A DNA stretch of 64,000 nt. Origin: an uncultured Clostridia bacterium. GTDB lineage: Bacteria > Bacillota > Clostridia > Christensenellales > Borkfalkiaceae. The number at the start of each line of letters is the position of its first letter. Positions within the stretch are counted from its first letter, which is position 1. Under the pieces are notes generated by a model. It worked only from the letters and a program-made list of their open reading frames with translations, was not told the DNA's origin and did not search any database. The stretch is taken from NCBI GenBank assembly GCA_944336975.1, contig CALVLH010000001.1, positions 244,706 to 308,705 on the forward strand. Reading direction: 5' to 3'. Shown in pieces: positions 13,427 to 19,740 of this stretch. The translations under genes were made by a program, and so were the position numbers.

Positions 13427-13464
13427 AAAAAGGAACGCCGATCGCAAACGCGATCGGCGTTCCT
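13427..13464 (-). terminator. Terminator of the sigma/lipoprotein cluster
   Basis: Read on the minus strand, a perfect 15-bp stem (13464-13450 with 13445-13431, 4-base loop) is followed by a TTTTT run. It lies 53 bases beyond the lipoprotein stop codon. Confidence 0.85.
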
Positions 13465-13516
13465 TACAGGTGAGAAAGAGGAGTCAATCCTCGGGTAAGC
13501 ATATAAATTATCTGCG

Positions 13517-15034
13517 TCAGGCTTGCGCGCCCGCTTTCCTTTCGTTTTTCAGCGCTTCGAGATAGTTGCGCGCGCTCTCTTCCGCCTTAGCGATCGTCTC
13601 TTCCATCTTCGCTCTCGCGTCGGCGAACTTTGCTTCCGCTTCTGCTTTCATCTCTTCGAGCTCCGCGTATTCCTCCTCGCTCAGGTCTTCCTTGATGAGT
13701 TCGAGGATGCGGTCCGCTTCGCCGCGGAGTTCCGCCGCATAGCCGCGCAGGTCTTCCACGGTAAGGCCGTTTTCGGCAATTTTTTCCATCTCTTCCATCA
13801 CGCGGACTGCCGTTGCGATCGCCTTTTCCGTCGCTTCCTGCACGGAATCGGGCAGGAGGGCAACGGTCGCTTTGACCGCCGCCACCGTCGCGTTGACGGA
13901 CGCCGCGATCGCTTCCGCTTCTTCTGCGTATTCCGTCGAAAGGCGTTCGATCTCCGCTTTGATCTTGCTCTCCGTTTCGTTGAGGGCGGCGGTCAGTTCG
14001 GTTTTCATCTTTTCCAGTTCTGCGTTTGCCTCGGAGTTTTTGAAGAGGACGTCCGCATACGCCTCGATGCTCTCGATCGTGATGTTGCCGTTTCCGTCTT
14101 TGATCTTCTCGATCTCCGTTTCCTCCAAGCCGAGCGCGGTCATTACTTTTGCGATCTGCGCCTCGTCGAGAGGGGTGGATGCGAGCACGCCCGCATATTC
14201 CGCGGCGTCGGCGATCGCGTCAAATCCGCGCGCGCCGAGCGCATACATCTGATAAGCCCCTCCGTAATATGCGGTGTCCGTATGATCGAGGAGATTTTTG
14301 GTGTAGTAAACCGAATACACGCTGTCGATCGCGGTCTGCGCGACGCTGTCGTACAGGCGGAATGCCTCCGATTTTGCGGCGTTGTATGCCGCGGTCGCAA
14401 ATTCTGCGATGTCCTCTCTCGCTTCCGCGATATACTGCACGAGCTCGTCGTCGTCCAGTTCGACGGCCGCTTCCAGCGTGATCCCGCCCGCTTCGGTTGC
14501 GGAGAGAGCGAGGCGGAATTCCGCGGCGGTCATCTTCTGAATGTCTTCATCCTCGGGATGTTCCGCTTTGAACGCGTCGAGTTTGCGCAGGAGCGAATAG
14601 GCGCCCGTGCTTTCCGCGGAAACGGCGATGCCGAGCGAATCTGCCGTCGCGGTGAGTTTTGCGTCGATCTTTTCCAGGACCTTGTCCGACTTTCTGCTTC
14701 CGACGGTGGACGAAGCGCTCAGTTCGACGACCTTGTTGTCTTCGTCCAGATAGCCGAGTTCTACGGCGGAAGTGGTGATGATCTCGATCGCGGTATCGAC
14801 GTCTTTGCCGAGGATGGCGGAAGTCTCTCCGTAAAGGAGAACCTGACCGTCTTCGTTGGTCCCGTAAACGCTCACCACGCGGTCGTTGGCGTCGAGGATG
14901 AGCTCCACGGACGGGTTGATGTCGAGGCTGACGAACGTCTTGTCGTCTTTCCCTCCGCTGCAACCTGCGAGCAGACCGGCGGTCATAACGCCCGCGCACA
15001 ATACGCTTGTCAGTTTCAATGCCTTGCTTTTCAT
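13517..15034 (-). CDS. Lipoprotein with RsgI-like Asn-Pro module and long helical body
   Basis: A 505-residue lipoprotein (lipobox ending at Cys25). Right after the lipid anchor, residues about 34-110 read FVSLDINPSVELILDANDRV and continue like the extracytoplasmic module next to the membrane in RsgI-type anti-sigma factors, with the Asn40-Pro41 pair intact; that module is reported to self-cleave in RsgI proteins. The rest (about 115-500) is acidic and alpha-helical with coiled-coil character, rich in Ala and Glu, with no enzyme motif seen. It has its own promoter, which matches the promoter of the sigma gene. I infer a regulon member that senses or titrates the same envelope signal; its function is unknown. 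Confidence 0.75.
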   Translation of the reverse strand: MKSKALKLTSVLCAGVMTAGLLAGCSGGKDDKTFVSLDINPSVELILDANDRVVSVYGTNEDGQVLLYGETSAILGKDVDTAIEIITTSAVELGYLDEDNKVVELSASSTVGSRKSDKVLEKIDAKLTATADSLGIAVSAESTGAYSLLRKLDAFKAEHPEDEDIQKMTAAEFRLALSATEAGGITLEAAVELDDDELVQYIAEAREDIAEFATAAYNAAKSEAFRLYDSVAQTAIDSVYSVYYTKNLLDHTDTAYYGGAYQMYALGARGFDAIADAAEYAGVLASTPLDEAQIAKVMTALGLEETEIEKIKDGNGNITIESIEAYADVLFKNSEANAELEKMKTELTAALNETESKIKAEIERLSTEYAEEAEAIAASVNATVAAVKATVALLPDSVQEATEKAIATAVRVMEEMEKIAENGLTVEDLRGYAAELRGEADRILELIKEDLSEEEYAELEEMKAEAEAKFADARAKMEETIAKAEESARNYLEALKNERKAGAQA

Positions 15035-15066: not shown

Positions 15067-15099
15067 TTATTAAACGGGCGGGAGGGGCGTTTTGTTGCA
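15067..15099 (-). promoter_or_regulatory. ECF-type promoter of the lipoprotein gene
   Basis: On the minus strand TGCAACAAAA (15099-15090), 13 bases, then CGTTTAATAA (15076-15067). The same two blocks with the same spacing stand before the sigma gene (17069-17037). The start codon lies 32 bases downstream. The match marks a likely target of the sigma factor encoded in this locus. Confidence 0.75.
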
Positions 15100-15112
15100 C
15101 AAATTAAAAATT

Positions 15113-16498
15113 TTATTGCGAAAGGGAATCCCAATAGGCGTTGAGCGATCCGAATTCCCGTTCGATCCGGTCGAGATATTCCCGATAATCGCGCTCGGAA
15201 ATGGCTTCGCGGGATTGTTCGTATGCTTCGCGGAAGATCTCGAAGCGGAGCCGCGCGCATTCGGTCAAGGCTTCCATCGTCTGACGGAAAAAGGTTTCCA
15301 GATCGGAAGGGAGCTGCATGAGTCTGCGCAGGAGAGCGGTGTCCACGCCGATCGAGTCGAGAAGATCGAGCACGTCTTCCGCAAAGAGGTCGAAGTCCGC
15401 TTCGGTAAAGTCAGTCGCGAGTTTTTCCAGCTCGTCGATGGGCAGGATCTCATAGTAAGAGGCTCTGAGTTCGAGTTCGCTCTTGCTGCTCAAAGCGGAG
15501 CCGCCGACGGCGCGGTACCGGGTGAGGAGCGCCGTCATCTCTTGCGTCAGCGCGAGAAAATCTGCCGTAAATTCGCTTTCGTCCGCGAGGCGAAGGACGT
15601 TCCAATAGTCCTTCAAAAGGAGGAAGTTGGGATTGTCGGGGTGCGCCTCGATGCGCGCGTTCAACTCCGTCATCTTATCGATGAGCGCGGCACATTCGCG
15701 CAGATCGCGGAAGTGTTCGCGGATAAGCGATTGCAGATAGGCGCGGAATTCGTCCAGAAGGACGGTCTCGCGATAATAGGAAGAACGCTCTTCATCCGTC
15801 ATGGTAAGGGCGATCCTCTGCGTGAAGGAAGAAAGGACTTTTTCCGCCTGCGACAGGAGAGAGCCGTCCTCGGGGATGCCGAGGGAAAGGCGGAACTGTG
15901 CGTCGGGGACGCTTTCCGCCGCGACGACGGCATAAGCGCCCTGTTCGCGGAAGAAGTCTTCAAGCGAGGCGGACAGCGAAGAAAGGCACTTTGTCGTTTG
16001 CGCGTCGGATGCGGTCAGCTTTACGGCGCCGCCCGCCTCGTTGAAGTCGAAATATCCCGCCTGTGCGGCGCGATCGACGAAGAGGGATACGGCCTCGTCC
16101 AGCGGTTTTCCCGTGAGGGAACGGAAAAATTCCTCGTCGGAAAAGAGCAGATCGGCGTCCTCGTTGAGGGCGATCACATGAGTCACGTTTCCCTTTTTGT
16201 CGGTAACGAAATTCGCTTCGGGGTTGATCTTCACCGTCACGCAGGACGACGCGAGCGCGGGGAGCGCGGCGGGAAGGGAGGCGATCACGGCGAACAGGAT
16301 GAGGAATGCCGCCGCTGCCGTCGCGAGCGAAGCGAAGAGAGTCTTCTTTGTGCGGGGCGAGAGCGCTCTGCGGCGCTTGCCTTCCGCGAGGTCGGACGCG
16401 GACTGCGCCCGTGCGACGGGCGCGTTGCGCACGTCCTCTCGAAGCTCGGGAACGAGCGCGTCGAGTTCATCGCCGAGTTGTTTTTTCCATGATTTCAT
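15113..16498 (-). CDS. Membrane anti-sigma factor candidate, RsgI-like
   Basis: A 461-residue protein with a cytoplasmic N-terminus (about 1-50) able to hold a sigma factor, one membrane helix (about 53-80), and immediately outside it a module with Asn92-Pro93 (VKINPEANFV) like the self-cleaving module of RsgI anti-sigma factors. Residues about 150-461 form a large helical extracytoplasmic domain with no carbohydrate-binding module visible. The gene overlaps the sigma gene by 4 bases (ATGA), the usual sigma/anti-sigma arrangement. Inhibition of the sigma factor is inferred from gene order and topology. The C-terminal domain is presumably the sensor, with an unknown ligand. Confidence 0.7.
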   Translation of the reverse strand: MKSWKKQLGDELDALVPELREDVRNAPVARAQSASDLAEGKRRRALSPRTKKTLFASLATAAAAFLILFAVIASLPAALPALASSCVTVKINPEANFVTDKKGNVTHVIALNEDADLLFSDEEFFRSLTGKPLDEAVSLFVDRAAQAGYFDFNEAGGAVKLTASDAQTTKCLSSLSASLEDFFREQGAYAVVAAESVPDAQFRLSLGIPEDGSLLSQAEKVLSSFTQRIALTMTDEERSSYYRETVLLDEFRAYLQSLIREHFRDLRECAALIDKMTELNARIEAHPDNPNFLLLKDYWNVLRLADESEFTADFLALTQEMTALLTRYRAVGGSALSSKSELELRASYYEILPIDELEKLATDFTEADFDLFAEDVLDLLDSIGVDTALLRRLMQLPSDLETFFRQTMEALTECARLRFEIFREAYEQSREAISERDYREYLDRIEREFGSLNAYWDSLSQ

Positions 16499-17010
16499 GC
16501 CCGTTCCTCCTTTAAGTATCGTTTGAGCTTTCCCACGGCGCGTTTATATTTGGAAGTGACCGTGCCGACGGGACAGTTCAGAAAGTTTGCAATTTCGCGG
16601 TGTTTATATCCCCATAAGACGTGGAGGACGACGATCTGCCGTTCCTCTTCGTCGAGACATTCCTGCAAGGCGTCGAACACGCCGCTTTCCGTCGCCGTTT
16701 CCCGCGGGGGGACGGGCGGCGCGTCGGTATAGACGATCCGCTTTTGTCTGCGTTTTTCGTCGAGAGCGGTATTTTTTGCGATTTGCAGGATCCATGCGCG
16801 CGCGTTGCTTCCCTTGCGATAGGCGGAAGCCGATTGCTTGATCTTGAGAAAAGCCGTTTGCAGACAATCTTCCGTATCTTGCCTGTTCCCGAAATAGGGA
16901 TAGAGAAAGGCATAAACGCCTCTCGCCGTCTGCCGATACAGATCATCGAACGCGGCGCGGTTGTCTTGGGCGACTTCCGTGAGCAGGAAGTCGAGTCTGT
17001 GTCCGTTCAT
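16495..17010 (-). CDS. ECF-type RNA polymerase sigma factor
   Basis: A 171-residue sigma factor with only the two regions typical of ECF sigmas: region 2 (about residues 20-85; FDDLYRQTARGVYAFLYPYF, the QDTEDCLQTAFLKI helix and the NTALDEKRRQ segment) and region 4 (about 115-165; helix-turn-helix YKHREIANFLNCPVGTVTSK). It should direct RNA polymerase to a small regulon that includes its own operon, since the promoter upstream matches that of the lipoprotein gene. The downstream overlapping gene is its probable inhibitor. Confidence 0.9.
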   Translation of the reverse strand: MNGHRLDFLLTEVAQDNRAAFDDLYRQTARGVYAFLYPYFGNRQDTEDCLQTAFLKIKQSASAYRKGSNARAWILQIAKNTALDEKRRQKRIVYTDAPPVPPRETATESGVFDALQECLDEEERQIVVLHVLWGYKHREIANFLNCPVGTVTSKYKRAVGKLKRYLKEERA

Positions 17011-17036
17011 ATCTCTCCGCAGTCTGCACCTTTCGA

Positions 17037-17069
17037 TTATTAAACGGAGTGCAGACGTATTTTATTGCA
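17037..17069 (-). promoter_or_regulatory. ECF-type promoter of the sigma/anti-sigma operon
   Basis: On the minus strand TGCAATAAAA (17069-17060), 13 bases, then CGTTTAATAA (17046-17037), 26 bases before the ATG. It differs from the copy at 15067-15099 by one base in the two conserved blocks, while the spacers are unrelated. A sigma-A-like TACAAT just upstream might supply basal expression. Confidence 0.75.
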
Positions 17070-17189: not shown

Positions 17190-17218
17190 TTGACTTCGGT
17201 TTTGCGATGTGATATAAT
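17190..17218 (+). promoter_or_regulatory. Promoter of the GH3 gene
   Basis: TTGACT (17190-17195), 17 bases, TATAAT (17213-17218). A GGGAGG ribosome binding site at 17229-17234 precedes the ATG at 17245. Confidence 0.8.
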
Positions 17219-17244
17219 GTTCAAAGCCGCGGGAGGCGGCGATC

Positions 17245-19740
17245 ATGGTAAGGTTCAGGCAAAAAATCGTCAATCTGCTCGTCAAGATCTATACGAAGTT
17301 TTTCAACAACGCGCTCCGTCAGGGCGAAAACATCGCGAAAGAGGGAAGAAGCGCCGCAACGCCCGGGATGGACACGCTGTTGCGCCGCGCGGCGGCGGAA
17401 GGCGCCGTCCTGCTCAAAAACGACGGCACGCTTCCGCTGGAAGGCAAAAAGACGGCGTTCTTCGGGCGCACGCAGACGGACAGTTTTTATACCGGTTACG
17501 GTTCGGGCGGCGACGTCGTTAAGCCCTATCGGGTAAGTATCCTCGACGGCGTCGAGGAGAACGGCGCGATCGATTTCGACCGCCCGCTCGCGCAGGAGTA
17601 TCGCGCATGGGCACAGGCGCATCCCGTCGATCACGGATATTGGGGGAATTGGCCGCGGTATTATCCCGAAATGCCCCTGACGGAGCGGCTCGTCGCGGAA
17701 GCGGCGGCGCGCGCGGGGACGGCGGTCGTCGTGATCGGCAGGGCGGCGGGAGAAGATCGCGAAAACGAAACGCAGAAGGGAAGTTACTATCTGACCGACG
17801 ACGAGAACAAAATGCTCGATCTGGTCACTTCGGCGTTCCGTCGGACGGCGGTCGTGCTTAACATCGGCAGCGTGATCGATCTTTCCTGGACGGAAAAATA
17901 CAAAAACAAGATCGGCGCTCTGCTCATCGTGTGGCAGGGCGGCATGGAGACAGGGAACGCCGTCGCCGACCTGCTGAGCGGCGCGGTATCCCCTTCGGGA
18001 AAGCTGACGGATACGATCGCCCGCCGCTATGAGGACTATCCCTCTGCGGCGCATTTCGGCAATGCGGATTATAACGAGTATGCGGAGGACATTTTTGTCG
18101 GTTACCGCTGGTTCGAGACGTTCGCCAAGGATCGCGTGCTCTATCCCTTCGGCTTCGGACTGAGTTATACGCAATTCGAGGTGTTCGCGCGCGAGCCCGT
18201 GATGACGGACGACGGGATGCGCGTACGCGTCTGCGTGAAGAATATCGGTCAGCGCGCGGGAAAGGAGACGGTGCAGGTATATCTGGAAAAACCGTGCGGC
18301 GTTCTGGGCAACGCGGCGCGGGAACTTGCGGCGTTTGCCAAGACGTCGCTCCTCGCCCCCGACGAAGAGGAGTCGCTCGAACTGCTCGTTCCCTATTCCG
18401 CCTTTTACTCTTACGACGAAGAGGGGCGGACGGGCTTTTGTTCCTGTTACGTCGTGGAAAAGGGTAAGTACAGCGTATATGCGGGGACGGATGTGCGGAG
18501 CGCGGAGCGAATCGGCGGCTTCGAAAGCGAACATACCGTCTGCATGAAACAGTGCGAAGAACAGTCTGCGCCCGTCCGCCCGTTCCTGCGCACGGAGGCG
18601 GCGGAAGAGGACGGCGTACGGCGTGCGGTCGTCCGTCCCGTCCCGTTGGCGAAGGCGGATCTCGCCGCGCGGATGACGGCGTCGATCCCGCCCGATCGCG
18701 CATTTACGGGCGATCGGGGCATCCTGCTCTCGGACGTGAAAGAGGGCAGAGCAACGATGGAGGACTTTGTCGCGCAGCTCTCGGTCGAGGAGCTGGAAGC
18801 GGTCAGTCGCGGCGATTACACGATGAACAGCCCGCTCGGACCGGAAGGCAACGCGGGCGTATTCGCGGGCGTGCTCCCGTCCCTGCGGAAGAAGGGGATC
18901 CCGCCCGTCGTGACGACGGACGGGCCCTCGGGCATCCGCCTTTGCCGCGCGAGTTCGCTCGTTCCCATCGGCACGGCGCTCGCCTGTTCCTTCGACTGTG
19001 CGCTCGCGGAAGAGGTCTATGAGGCGGTGGGCAGGGAAATGCTCGCCCGCGGCACGGACGTATTGCTCGCGCCCGCGCTCAATCTGCACCGCAACCCGCT
19101 GTGCGGGCGCAATTTCGAATATTTCTCGGAAGATCCGCTTTTGTCCGGCAAGATCGCCGCGGCGGCGGTGCGCGGCGTGCAGAAAACGGGCGCGGCGGCT
19201 TGTCCCAAACATTTTGCCTGCAACAATCAGGAGTTCAACCGCAACCGCAACGATTCCCGCCTATCCGAACGCGCCCTGCGCGAGCTGTATCTCCGCGCAT
19301 TCGAGATCTGCGTGCGCGAGGGGAAACCGCTCTTTCTCATGACCTCTTACAACAAGATCAACGGCGTGTGGGGGCATTACCATTACGCGCTCTGCGAAGG
19401 GATCCTGCGCAAAGAGTGGGGGTTCGGCGGCTGTGTGATGACCGACTGGTGGATGCGCTCCGCCCGTTGTCCCGAATTTCCTTCCCTGCGCGATAACGCC
19501 TATCGCGTGCGTGCGCGGGTGAATCTGCTCATGCCTGGCGGCGGGTATCTGGGGCGCAGGAAGCCTGACGGCACGTTGTTGAAGACATACGGCAAAAAGA
19601 AGGGCATCACGCTCGGGGAATTGCAGCGGAATGCGGCGGAGATCCTGGGCGCGGTCCTGACGCTGCCCGCGATGGACAGGGAATATCCCGACGCGCCCGC
19701 GGGCGATAATACATCACAGAACGAGGAGGAAGAACAATGA
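17245..19740 (+). CDS. Circularly permuted GH3 beta-glucosidase-type glycoside hydrolase
   Basis: This 831-residue protein has GH3 domains in inverted order. The alpha/beta sandwich (usually C-terminal) comes first (about 40-300; AAAEGAVLLKNDGTLPL, WQGGMETGNAVADLLSG, PSGKL), followed by the fibronectin-like domain (about 310-440; FGFGLSYTQF) and then the TIM barrel (about 500-800), which ends with the nucleophile Asp734 in the VMTDWW motif. Substrate-site features are present (PKHFACNNQE, MTSYNKING). No signal peptide is evident, so it probably acts on imported oligosaccharides. The inverted order is known for some ruminal GH3 enzymes. The following SIMPL gene overlaps by 4 bases. The exact sugar specificity cannot be read. 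Confidence 0.9.
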   Translation: MVRFRQKIVNLLVKIYTKFFNNALRQGENIAKEGRSAATPGMDTLLRRAAAEGAVLLKNDGTLPLEGKKTAFFGRTQTDSFYTGYGSGGDVVKPYRVSILDGVEENGAIDFDRPLAQEYRAWAQAHPVDHGYWGNWPRYYPEMPLTERLVAEAAARAGTAVVVIGRAAGEDRENETQKGSYYLTDDENKMLDLVTSAFRRTAVVLNIGSVIDLSWTEKYKNKIGALLIVWQGGMETGNAVADLLSGAVSPSGKLTDTIARRYEDYPSAAHFGNADYNEYAEDIFVGYRWFETFAKDRVLYPFGFGLSYTQFEVFAREPVMTDDGMRVRVCVKNIGQRAGKETVQVYLEKPCGVLGNAARELAAFAKTSLLAPDEEESLELLVPYSAFYSYDEEGRTGFCSCYVVEKGKYSVYAGTDVRSAERIGGFESEHTVCMKQCEEQSAPVRPFLRTEAAEEDGVRRAVVRPVPLAKADLAARMTASIPPDRAFTGDRGILLSDVKEGRATMEDFVAQLSVEELEAVSRGDYTMNSPLGPEGNAGVFAGVLPSLRKKGIPPVVTTDGPSGIRLCRASSLVPIGTALACSFDCALAEEVYEAVGREMLARGTDVLLAPALNLHRNPLCGRNFEYFSEDPLLSGKIAAAAVRGVQKTGAAACPKHFACNNQEFNRNRNDSRLSERALRELYLRAFEICVREGKPLFLMTSYNKINGVWGHYHYALCEGILRKEWGFGGCVMTDWWMRSARCPEFPSLRDNAYRVRARVNLLMPGGGYLGRRKPDGTLLKTYGKKKGITLGELQRNAAEILGAVLTLPAMDREYPDAPAGDNTSQNEEEEQ

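Follow-up and report, generated by a model that had tools for sequence, protein, structure and literature searches.

The 64,000-nt stretch of DNA analysed here (hereafter the window) carries on its minus strand adjoining genes for an ECF sigma factor, a membrane anti-sigma factor and a lipoprotein. The sigma factor (16495..17010, 171 aa) has regions 2 and 4 only, and its matches to Sigma70_r2 (E = 6.8e-15) and Sigma70_r4_2 (E = 5.3e-10) both exceed the cut-off. Its stop codon is overlapped by the start codon of the second gene (ATGA), which encodes a 461-aa protein (15113..16498; AlphaFold2 mean pLDDT 86) composed of a short helical N-terminal part, a probable transmembrane helix (model helix 51–74), an RsgI_M domain (PF23750, E = 2.4e-13) at residues 85–199 that holds Asn92-Pro93, and a helical C-terminal part. 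We regard this membrane protein as the putative co-encoded anti-sigma factor, presumed to bind the sigma factor; a Pfam search at E up to 0.1 returned RsgI_M only, with no RsgI_N sigma-binding domain. The lipoprotein (13517..15034, 505 aa; mean pLDDT 84) also contains PF23750 (E = 3.2e-20), at residues 33–138 and with Asn40-Pro41, preceded by the lipobox Cys25 and followed by a long helical C-terminal part. Cys25 is invariant across 29 aligned lipoproteins; signal peptide and lipobox were judged by eye.

An earlier note on this DNA had described the lipoprotein gene as separate, but it directly follows the anti-sigma gene. The anti-sigma stop ends at 15113, the -35 element of the lipoprotein gene begins 13 nt later and its ATG lies 78 nt later, which places this gene third in an apparent operon, behind a promoter internal to that operon. 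On the minus strand, a scan for terminators listed none between these two genes. A terminator-like hairpin lies 3' of the lipoprotein gene (13430..13465, minus strand; -33.9 kcal/mol over a 55-nt stretch, z = -6.8) and is absent from the consensus terminator scan listing. On the plus strand, a TTGACT-N17-TATAAT promoter-like site (17190–17245) precedes a divergent ORF at 17245 that by eye resembles a GH3-type glycosidase.

Two matching promoters at the locus

Copies of TGCAAYAAAA-N13-CGTTTAATAA had been reported ahead of the sigma and lipoprotein genes, and both are present where claimed, differing at one of 20 block positions. The minus-strand copy at 17069..17037 reads TGCAATAAAA-tacgtctgcactc-CGTTTAATAA and ends 26 nt ahead of the sigma ATG (17010), and that at 15099..15067 reads TGCAACAAAA-cgcccctcccgcc-CGTTTAATAA and ends 32 nt ahead of the lipoprotein ATG (15034). 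Expressed in standard ECF form, the motif is TGCAAY-N17-CGTTTA, the blocks of the earlier note taking in the A-tract that follows the -35. From the sequence and its conservation in relatives, we annotate 17037..17069 as the operon promoter ahead of the sigma and anti-sigma genes (TGCAAT-N17-CGTTTA; blocks TGCAATAAAA-N13-CGTTTAATAA) and 15067..15099 as an internal promoter of the lipoprotein gene (TGCAAC-N17-CGTTTA). An AAC/CGT-type promoter is thus present at the sigma factor's own gene, with AAT in the place of AAC; AAC itself occurs in the copy at the lipoprotein gene.

No further copy had been seen by eye in the window, and the search agrees: at up to three mismatches the motif returned those two sites only, and 100 dinucleotide shuffles gave none. 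At the same tolerance, the draft genome (1.72 Mb, 93.7% complete) held no third copy, and the reversed control gave no site.

Conservation of the promoter pair and size of the regulon

We searched 396 genomes of the order, 130 of which gave a match to the sigma factor with E no higher than 1e-20, and fetched 40 regions, of which 34 were analysed together with the window's own locus; L203–L208 were left out, four having a more distant sigma factor and two none that was found. This first set yielded 35 sigma, 35 anti-sigma and 28 lipoprotein genes. With a spacer of 13, at least 15 of 17 consensus positions were matched upstream of 29/35 sigma and 26/28 lipoprotein genes, and none of the 35 anti-sigma upstream regions reached 14. 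The refined consensus, NNCAAYAAAA-N13-YGTTTAATA, was fitted on these loci, so that the first set alone would be circular.

The second set comprised the best 80 of 233 stretches encoding a relative, taken from a collection of named genomes; their record titles mostly name uncultured Clostridia MAGs, with animal caecum, colon or rectum as the source of many. Upstream sequence was sufficient for the sigma gene in 79 of the 80 loci. A site was accepted at up to two mismatches with a spacer of 13 or 14, control windows were drawn from the same loci, and loci having no exact 300-nt central stretch in common with earlier loci were treated as held out. Among held-out loci, the motif preceded 47 of 51 sigma genes and 39 of 42 lipoprotein genes, compared with 7 of 3979 control windows; among loci already seen, it preceded 24/28 and 24/24, compared with 3/2204 control windows. 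Lipoprotein genes left unplaced by the script may have contributed promoters to the control windows. Misses with more than two mismatches numbered 8/79 for the sigma gene (five mismatches in L341 and L344, four in L282 and L283, three in four others) and 3/66 for the lipoprotein gene (five in L285, four in L307, three in L313). L344, whose record is titled Acholeplasma, gave no anti-sigma match. Two records titled Corallococcus sp. (L284 and L300) carry the module and are probably mislabelled MAGs.

In the closest relative (L266, sigma 77% identical), the blocks are identical save for one base and the spacers have diverged. Nine loci with more diverged sigma clades (L256–L260 and L262–L265) lack the motif upstream of the sigma gene. 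Among 36 other genomes of the same genus, the best sigma identity was 44%, so the system is patchy within its own genus. A separate observation concerns G384:C12:5103-5839, where two motif-like copies with near-identical spacers lie 0.7 kb apart; no sigma or RsgI_M gene was found nearby in L203, the locus around them.

The earlier note had proposed scanning the genome and its relatives for the motif, and the comparison is strongly supportive, most of the homologous loci of relatives carrying it. The reading as an autoregulated ECF promoter gains from the pair being conserved before orthologous sigma and lipoprotein genes in several families while the spacers diverged. The claimed link between lipoprotein and sigma factor is likewise supported by comparison, and expression of the former would depend on the latter.

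The two promoters of a genome also resemble each other. In 65 of 66 pairs (L327, with too little upstream sequence, was left out), block identity was 0.892 within genomes versus 0.815 across them, a value matched in none of 5000 permutations, and spacer identity was 0.356 versus 0.289. The last -35 base of TGCAAY is T in 36/65 and C in 29/65 sigma promoters, and the first -10 base is C in both promoters of 19 pairs, T in both of 34 and C with T in one, the other 11 pairs involving A or G. Shared ancestry partly explains this likeness. Mapped onto the sigma tree, changes of the first -10 base number six in the sigma promoter and five in the lipoprotein promoter, with only two independent pairs on well-supported branches; coupled changes being few, no sign test was significant, and coupled evolution did not reach statistical proof.

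Exact sites of the refined pattern number 43 across the 396 genomes, in 32 of them, and the reversed pattern gave four. Of these 43, 33 lie directly before a family sigma or RsgI_M lipoprotein gene (the window's two included), one lies 237 nt before an RsgI_M lipoprotein gene that has a nearer site too, and nine lie elsewhere. The motif is kept where the lipoprotein gene stands apart, about 12 kb from the sigma gene on the same contig in G115 and about 2.9 kb beyond the anti-sigma gene in G202. In G072 and G380, the sigma and lipoprotein genes fall on separate contigs but close to contig ends, and these two genomes were dropped as proof of movement of the lipoprotein gene. Two of the nine sites elsewhere are exact copies in two genomes of one genus, at L247 (G364:C92) and L255 (G346:C15), each between genes that by eye are gltX-like and of M20 peptidase type, possibly marking a third target or a small RNA.

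In the window's own genome, the refined pattern at up to two mismatches returned the two module sites only. A larger regulon there was rejected: the pattern added six sites, all at three mismatches, against 21 sites for the reversed control. The detectable regulon consists of these two promoters, with no large set behind them.

Known systems and a paralogue in the same genome

The window's sigma factor resembles ECF factors in having regions 2 and 4 only, a co-encoded membrane anti-sigma factor and an own promoter of the form TGCAAY-N17-CGTT, and B. subtilis SigM and SigV likewise have TGCAAC-like promoters. Autoregulation is known among ECF factors, and the cited passages give AAC at -35 and CGT at -10 as the promoter hallmark (PMC8103513). 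Unlike hallmark promoters, those of the window have AAT or AAC followed by an A-tract, and an extended GTTTAATA -10; for several B. subtilis ECF factors, the passages cited describe a T-tract after the -35 (PMC6056542). The module also differs from known ECF systems in its RsgI-type anti-sigma factor and in the second conserved promoter, at an RsgI_M lipoprotein gene.

SigI/RsgI systems are known, in the passages cited, from Bacillus subtilis and Clostridium thermocellum (PMC12203970, PMC6056542, PMC10202637), and RsgI anti-sigma factors are there paired with SigI, which is without sigma4 and has SigI-C instead (PMC6056542). Like RsgI as described in those passages, the window's anti-sigma factor has an RsgI periplasmic domain (self-cleaving in RsgI) with Asn-Pro, and SigI promoters are described there with an A-tract, a gap of 12–15 (the range searched in that work) and CG, as in the window. 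Unlike SigI as there described, the window's sigma factor carries region 4 in place of SigI-C, for which reason we rejected a SigI system; unlike RsgI, its anti-sigma factor has no RsgI_N match. The SigI/RsgI passages cited describe no lipoprotein with an RsgI domain such as that of the window module. In the passages of open-access literature covered, the combination of an ECF sigma factor, an RsgI-type anti-sigma factor and a conserved second promoter at an RsgI_M lipoprotein gene was not found.

The window's genome has three further ECF-like sigma matches, and at G000:C8 it holds a second ECF sigma/RsgI_M anti-sigma pair (system B), whose sigma factor is 38% identical. A lipoprotein gene upstream of that pair has the promoter TCCAACAAAA-N13-TGTTGTAAGAGTGAAA, which occurs once in the genome; across the genus the form is an A-tract TCCAACAAAA-N13-YGTT, with TCCAAC as the -35 in the window's genome, and the arrangement recurs in same-genus relatives. 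System B is thus like the window module in its ECF sigma factor, RsgI_M anti-sigma factor and adjoining lipoprotein gene with an A-tract ECF-like promoter. It is unlike it in that its lipoprotein has no RsgI_M match and its sigma operon is itself under a TTGACA/TATAAT-like promoter, present in 18 of 21 loci (L073–L092 and L107, window's genome included) and missing at L089, L090 and L092. In seven same-genus system-B loci (L073–L078 and L080), sigma and anti-sigma lie in one open frame of 511–558 aa. The junction in L073, L074, L076 and L078 has a GGAGG-like site and an in-frame GTG, so that either a fusion or a separately started anti-sigma factor is possible.

In the window's genome, system B has Trp in sigma region 4.2 where the window's sigma factor has Ser153, and C where the window module has G at the second -35 base. 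Trp at that site goes with C at the second -35 base of the lipoprotein promoter in 37/37 rows (19 from system B, 18 from the window family). The residue is Ser or Ala, and the base is not C, in a further 48/48, an agreement of 85/85; L082 and L092 (no promoter read) and L103–L105 (recognition-helix pattern unmatched) were excluded from the count. Among the window family's own sigma promoters, T stands in place of C in 4 of those 18 rows. The match of Ser/Trp with G/C suggests how two paralogous systems could stay apart in one cell. Both changes map to the same single branch, one evolutionary event, and we therefore offer a recognition switch as a hypothesis.

Proposed mechanism and rival explanations

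Self-cleavage of RsgI falls between Asn and Pro within a domain, RsgI_M, that we take to be the SEAL domain. That name is drawn from a reference title in PMC12203970. The Asn-Pro pair occurs in all 73 anti-sigma factors and all 66 lipoproteins placed by the script across the 80 loci; one first-set anti-sigma factor (L201) is without it. In a phmmer search, the lipoprotein matched 8hep_B, whose structure is solved and which is named as an anti-sigma factor; the alignment starts with chain residue 1 opposite Pro41, as would be expected of a chain cut before that proline. Foldseek searches with the AlphaFold2 models gave RsgI structures as top PDB matches at probability 1.00 for both proteins, 8t9n and 8hdj for the anti-sigma factor (best E = 1.7e-3) and RsgI structures for the lipoprotein (best E = 2.5e-4). 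The two proteins have in common an RsgI-type domain that is probably self-cutting. Beyond it, the lipoprotein as a full duplicate of the anti-sigma factor was rejected, the profile alignment of the two families covering the RsgI_M domain only. The genome also encodes a strong M50 site-2 protease homologue, as do all 14 control genomes.

The anatomy of the module and the conservation of both promoters are plain from the loci themselves, and we infer that the window's sigma factor drives both. A compact autoregulated ECF module, in which the sigma factor reads both promoters, an RsgI-like step releases it and the lipoprotein is the output, is in our judgement a highly probable account of the whole. 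The sigma factor would read both TGCAAY-N17-CGTTTA promoters, the upstream one providing positive feedback on the sigma factor together with its inhibitor and the internal one boosting the lipoprotein. For RsgI, the cited passages describe periplasmic domains that cut themselves, strand 1 separating on a signal and RseP and ClpXP then acting (PMC12203970), and the same course is described for B. subtilis RsgI (PMC10202637). By analogy, the outer RsgI_M (SEAL) domain of the window's anti-sigma factor would cut itself at Asn92-Pro93, its pieces staying associated until strand 1 is drawn off by a signal at the envelope; intramembrane cleavage of the anti-sigma factor by a site-2 protease would then free the sigma factor. 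In the lipoprotein, which has this Asn-Pro domain too, a lipid anchor takes the place of the transmembrane helix, and we infer that the lipoprotein is an envelope output dedicated to the sigma factor as well as its partner in feedback. It might also, and this is the least secure element, retain or release its helical domain in response to that stress.

Both promoters could instead be read mainly by another sigma factor, for instance the system-B paralogue, their linkage to the adjoining sigma gene being incidental. The further ECF-like sigma factors of the genome and the similar A-tract promoter of system B (TCCAACAAAA-N13-TGTTGTAAG) lend this some plausibility, but the motif tracks the clade of the window's sigma factor, being missing upstream of the sigma gene in the nine diverged loci; the system-B lipoprotein promoters that were read all start with TCC or GCC; and 33 of the 43 exact sites in the order fall at the module. 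We consider such a reading very improbable. Marginally less credible still is that the lipoprotein gene is mainly co-transcribed with the sigma and anti-sigma genes, the internal promoter being a remnant of a duplicated operon start. The gene does lie directly downstream with no terminator listed on that strand, and the RsgI_M domains of lipoprotein and anti-sigma factor are homologous; however, the spacers are little alike, yet the blocks are kept at nearly all held-out lipoprotein genes (39/42), and the promoter persists at lipoprotein genes set apart from the operon, in G115 and G202.

The least probable of the alternatives is that the conserved blocks are the operator of a DNA-binding repressor or activator rather than promoter elements. 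Two short conserved blocks at a nearly fixed gap could form a bipartite operator, but they are not inverted repeats of one another, and the blocks, the TGCAAY-N17-CGTT spacing and the distance to the start codon fit ECF promoters, judged by the AAC/CGT hallmark in the cited passages of PMC8103513.

Within the autoregulated module, the lipoprotein might have a more specific part, that of a strand-capping feedback device in a two-promoter homeostat kept apart by Ser/Trp and G/C, a proposal that we think unlikely. The self-cleaved body of its RsgI_M domain would bind the strand that the cut anti-sigma factor retains, or donate its own, which would shield the anti-sigma factor from the site-2 protease and switch the sigma factor off. 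If this were true, the two-promoter regulon would be a self-contained homeostat of two self-cutting domains, separated from its paralogue by Ser/Trp in sigma region 4.2 and G/C in the -35.

For this family of ECF sigma factors from uncultured Clostridia, the comparison supplies a promoter motif and a two-promoter regulon, links that are hard to obtain without cultures. The module unites true ECF sigma factors with the self-cleaving RsgI-type anti-sigma domain, which are treated apart in the literature passages cited here. That the domain is common to the anti-sigma factor and to the sole other conserved target suggests a feedback design that can be tested.
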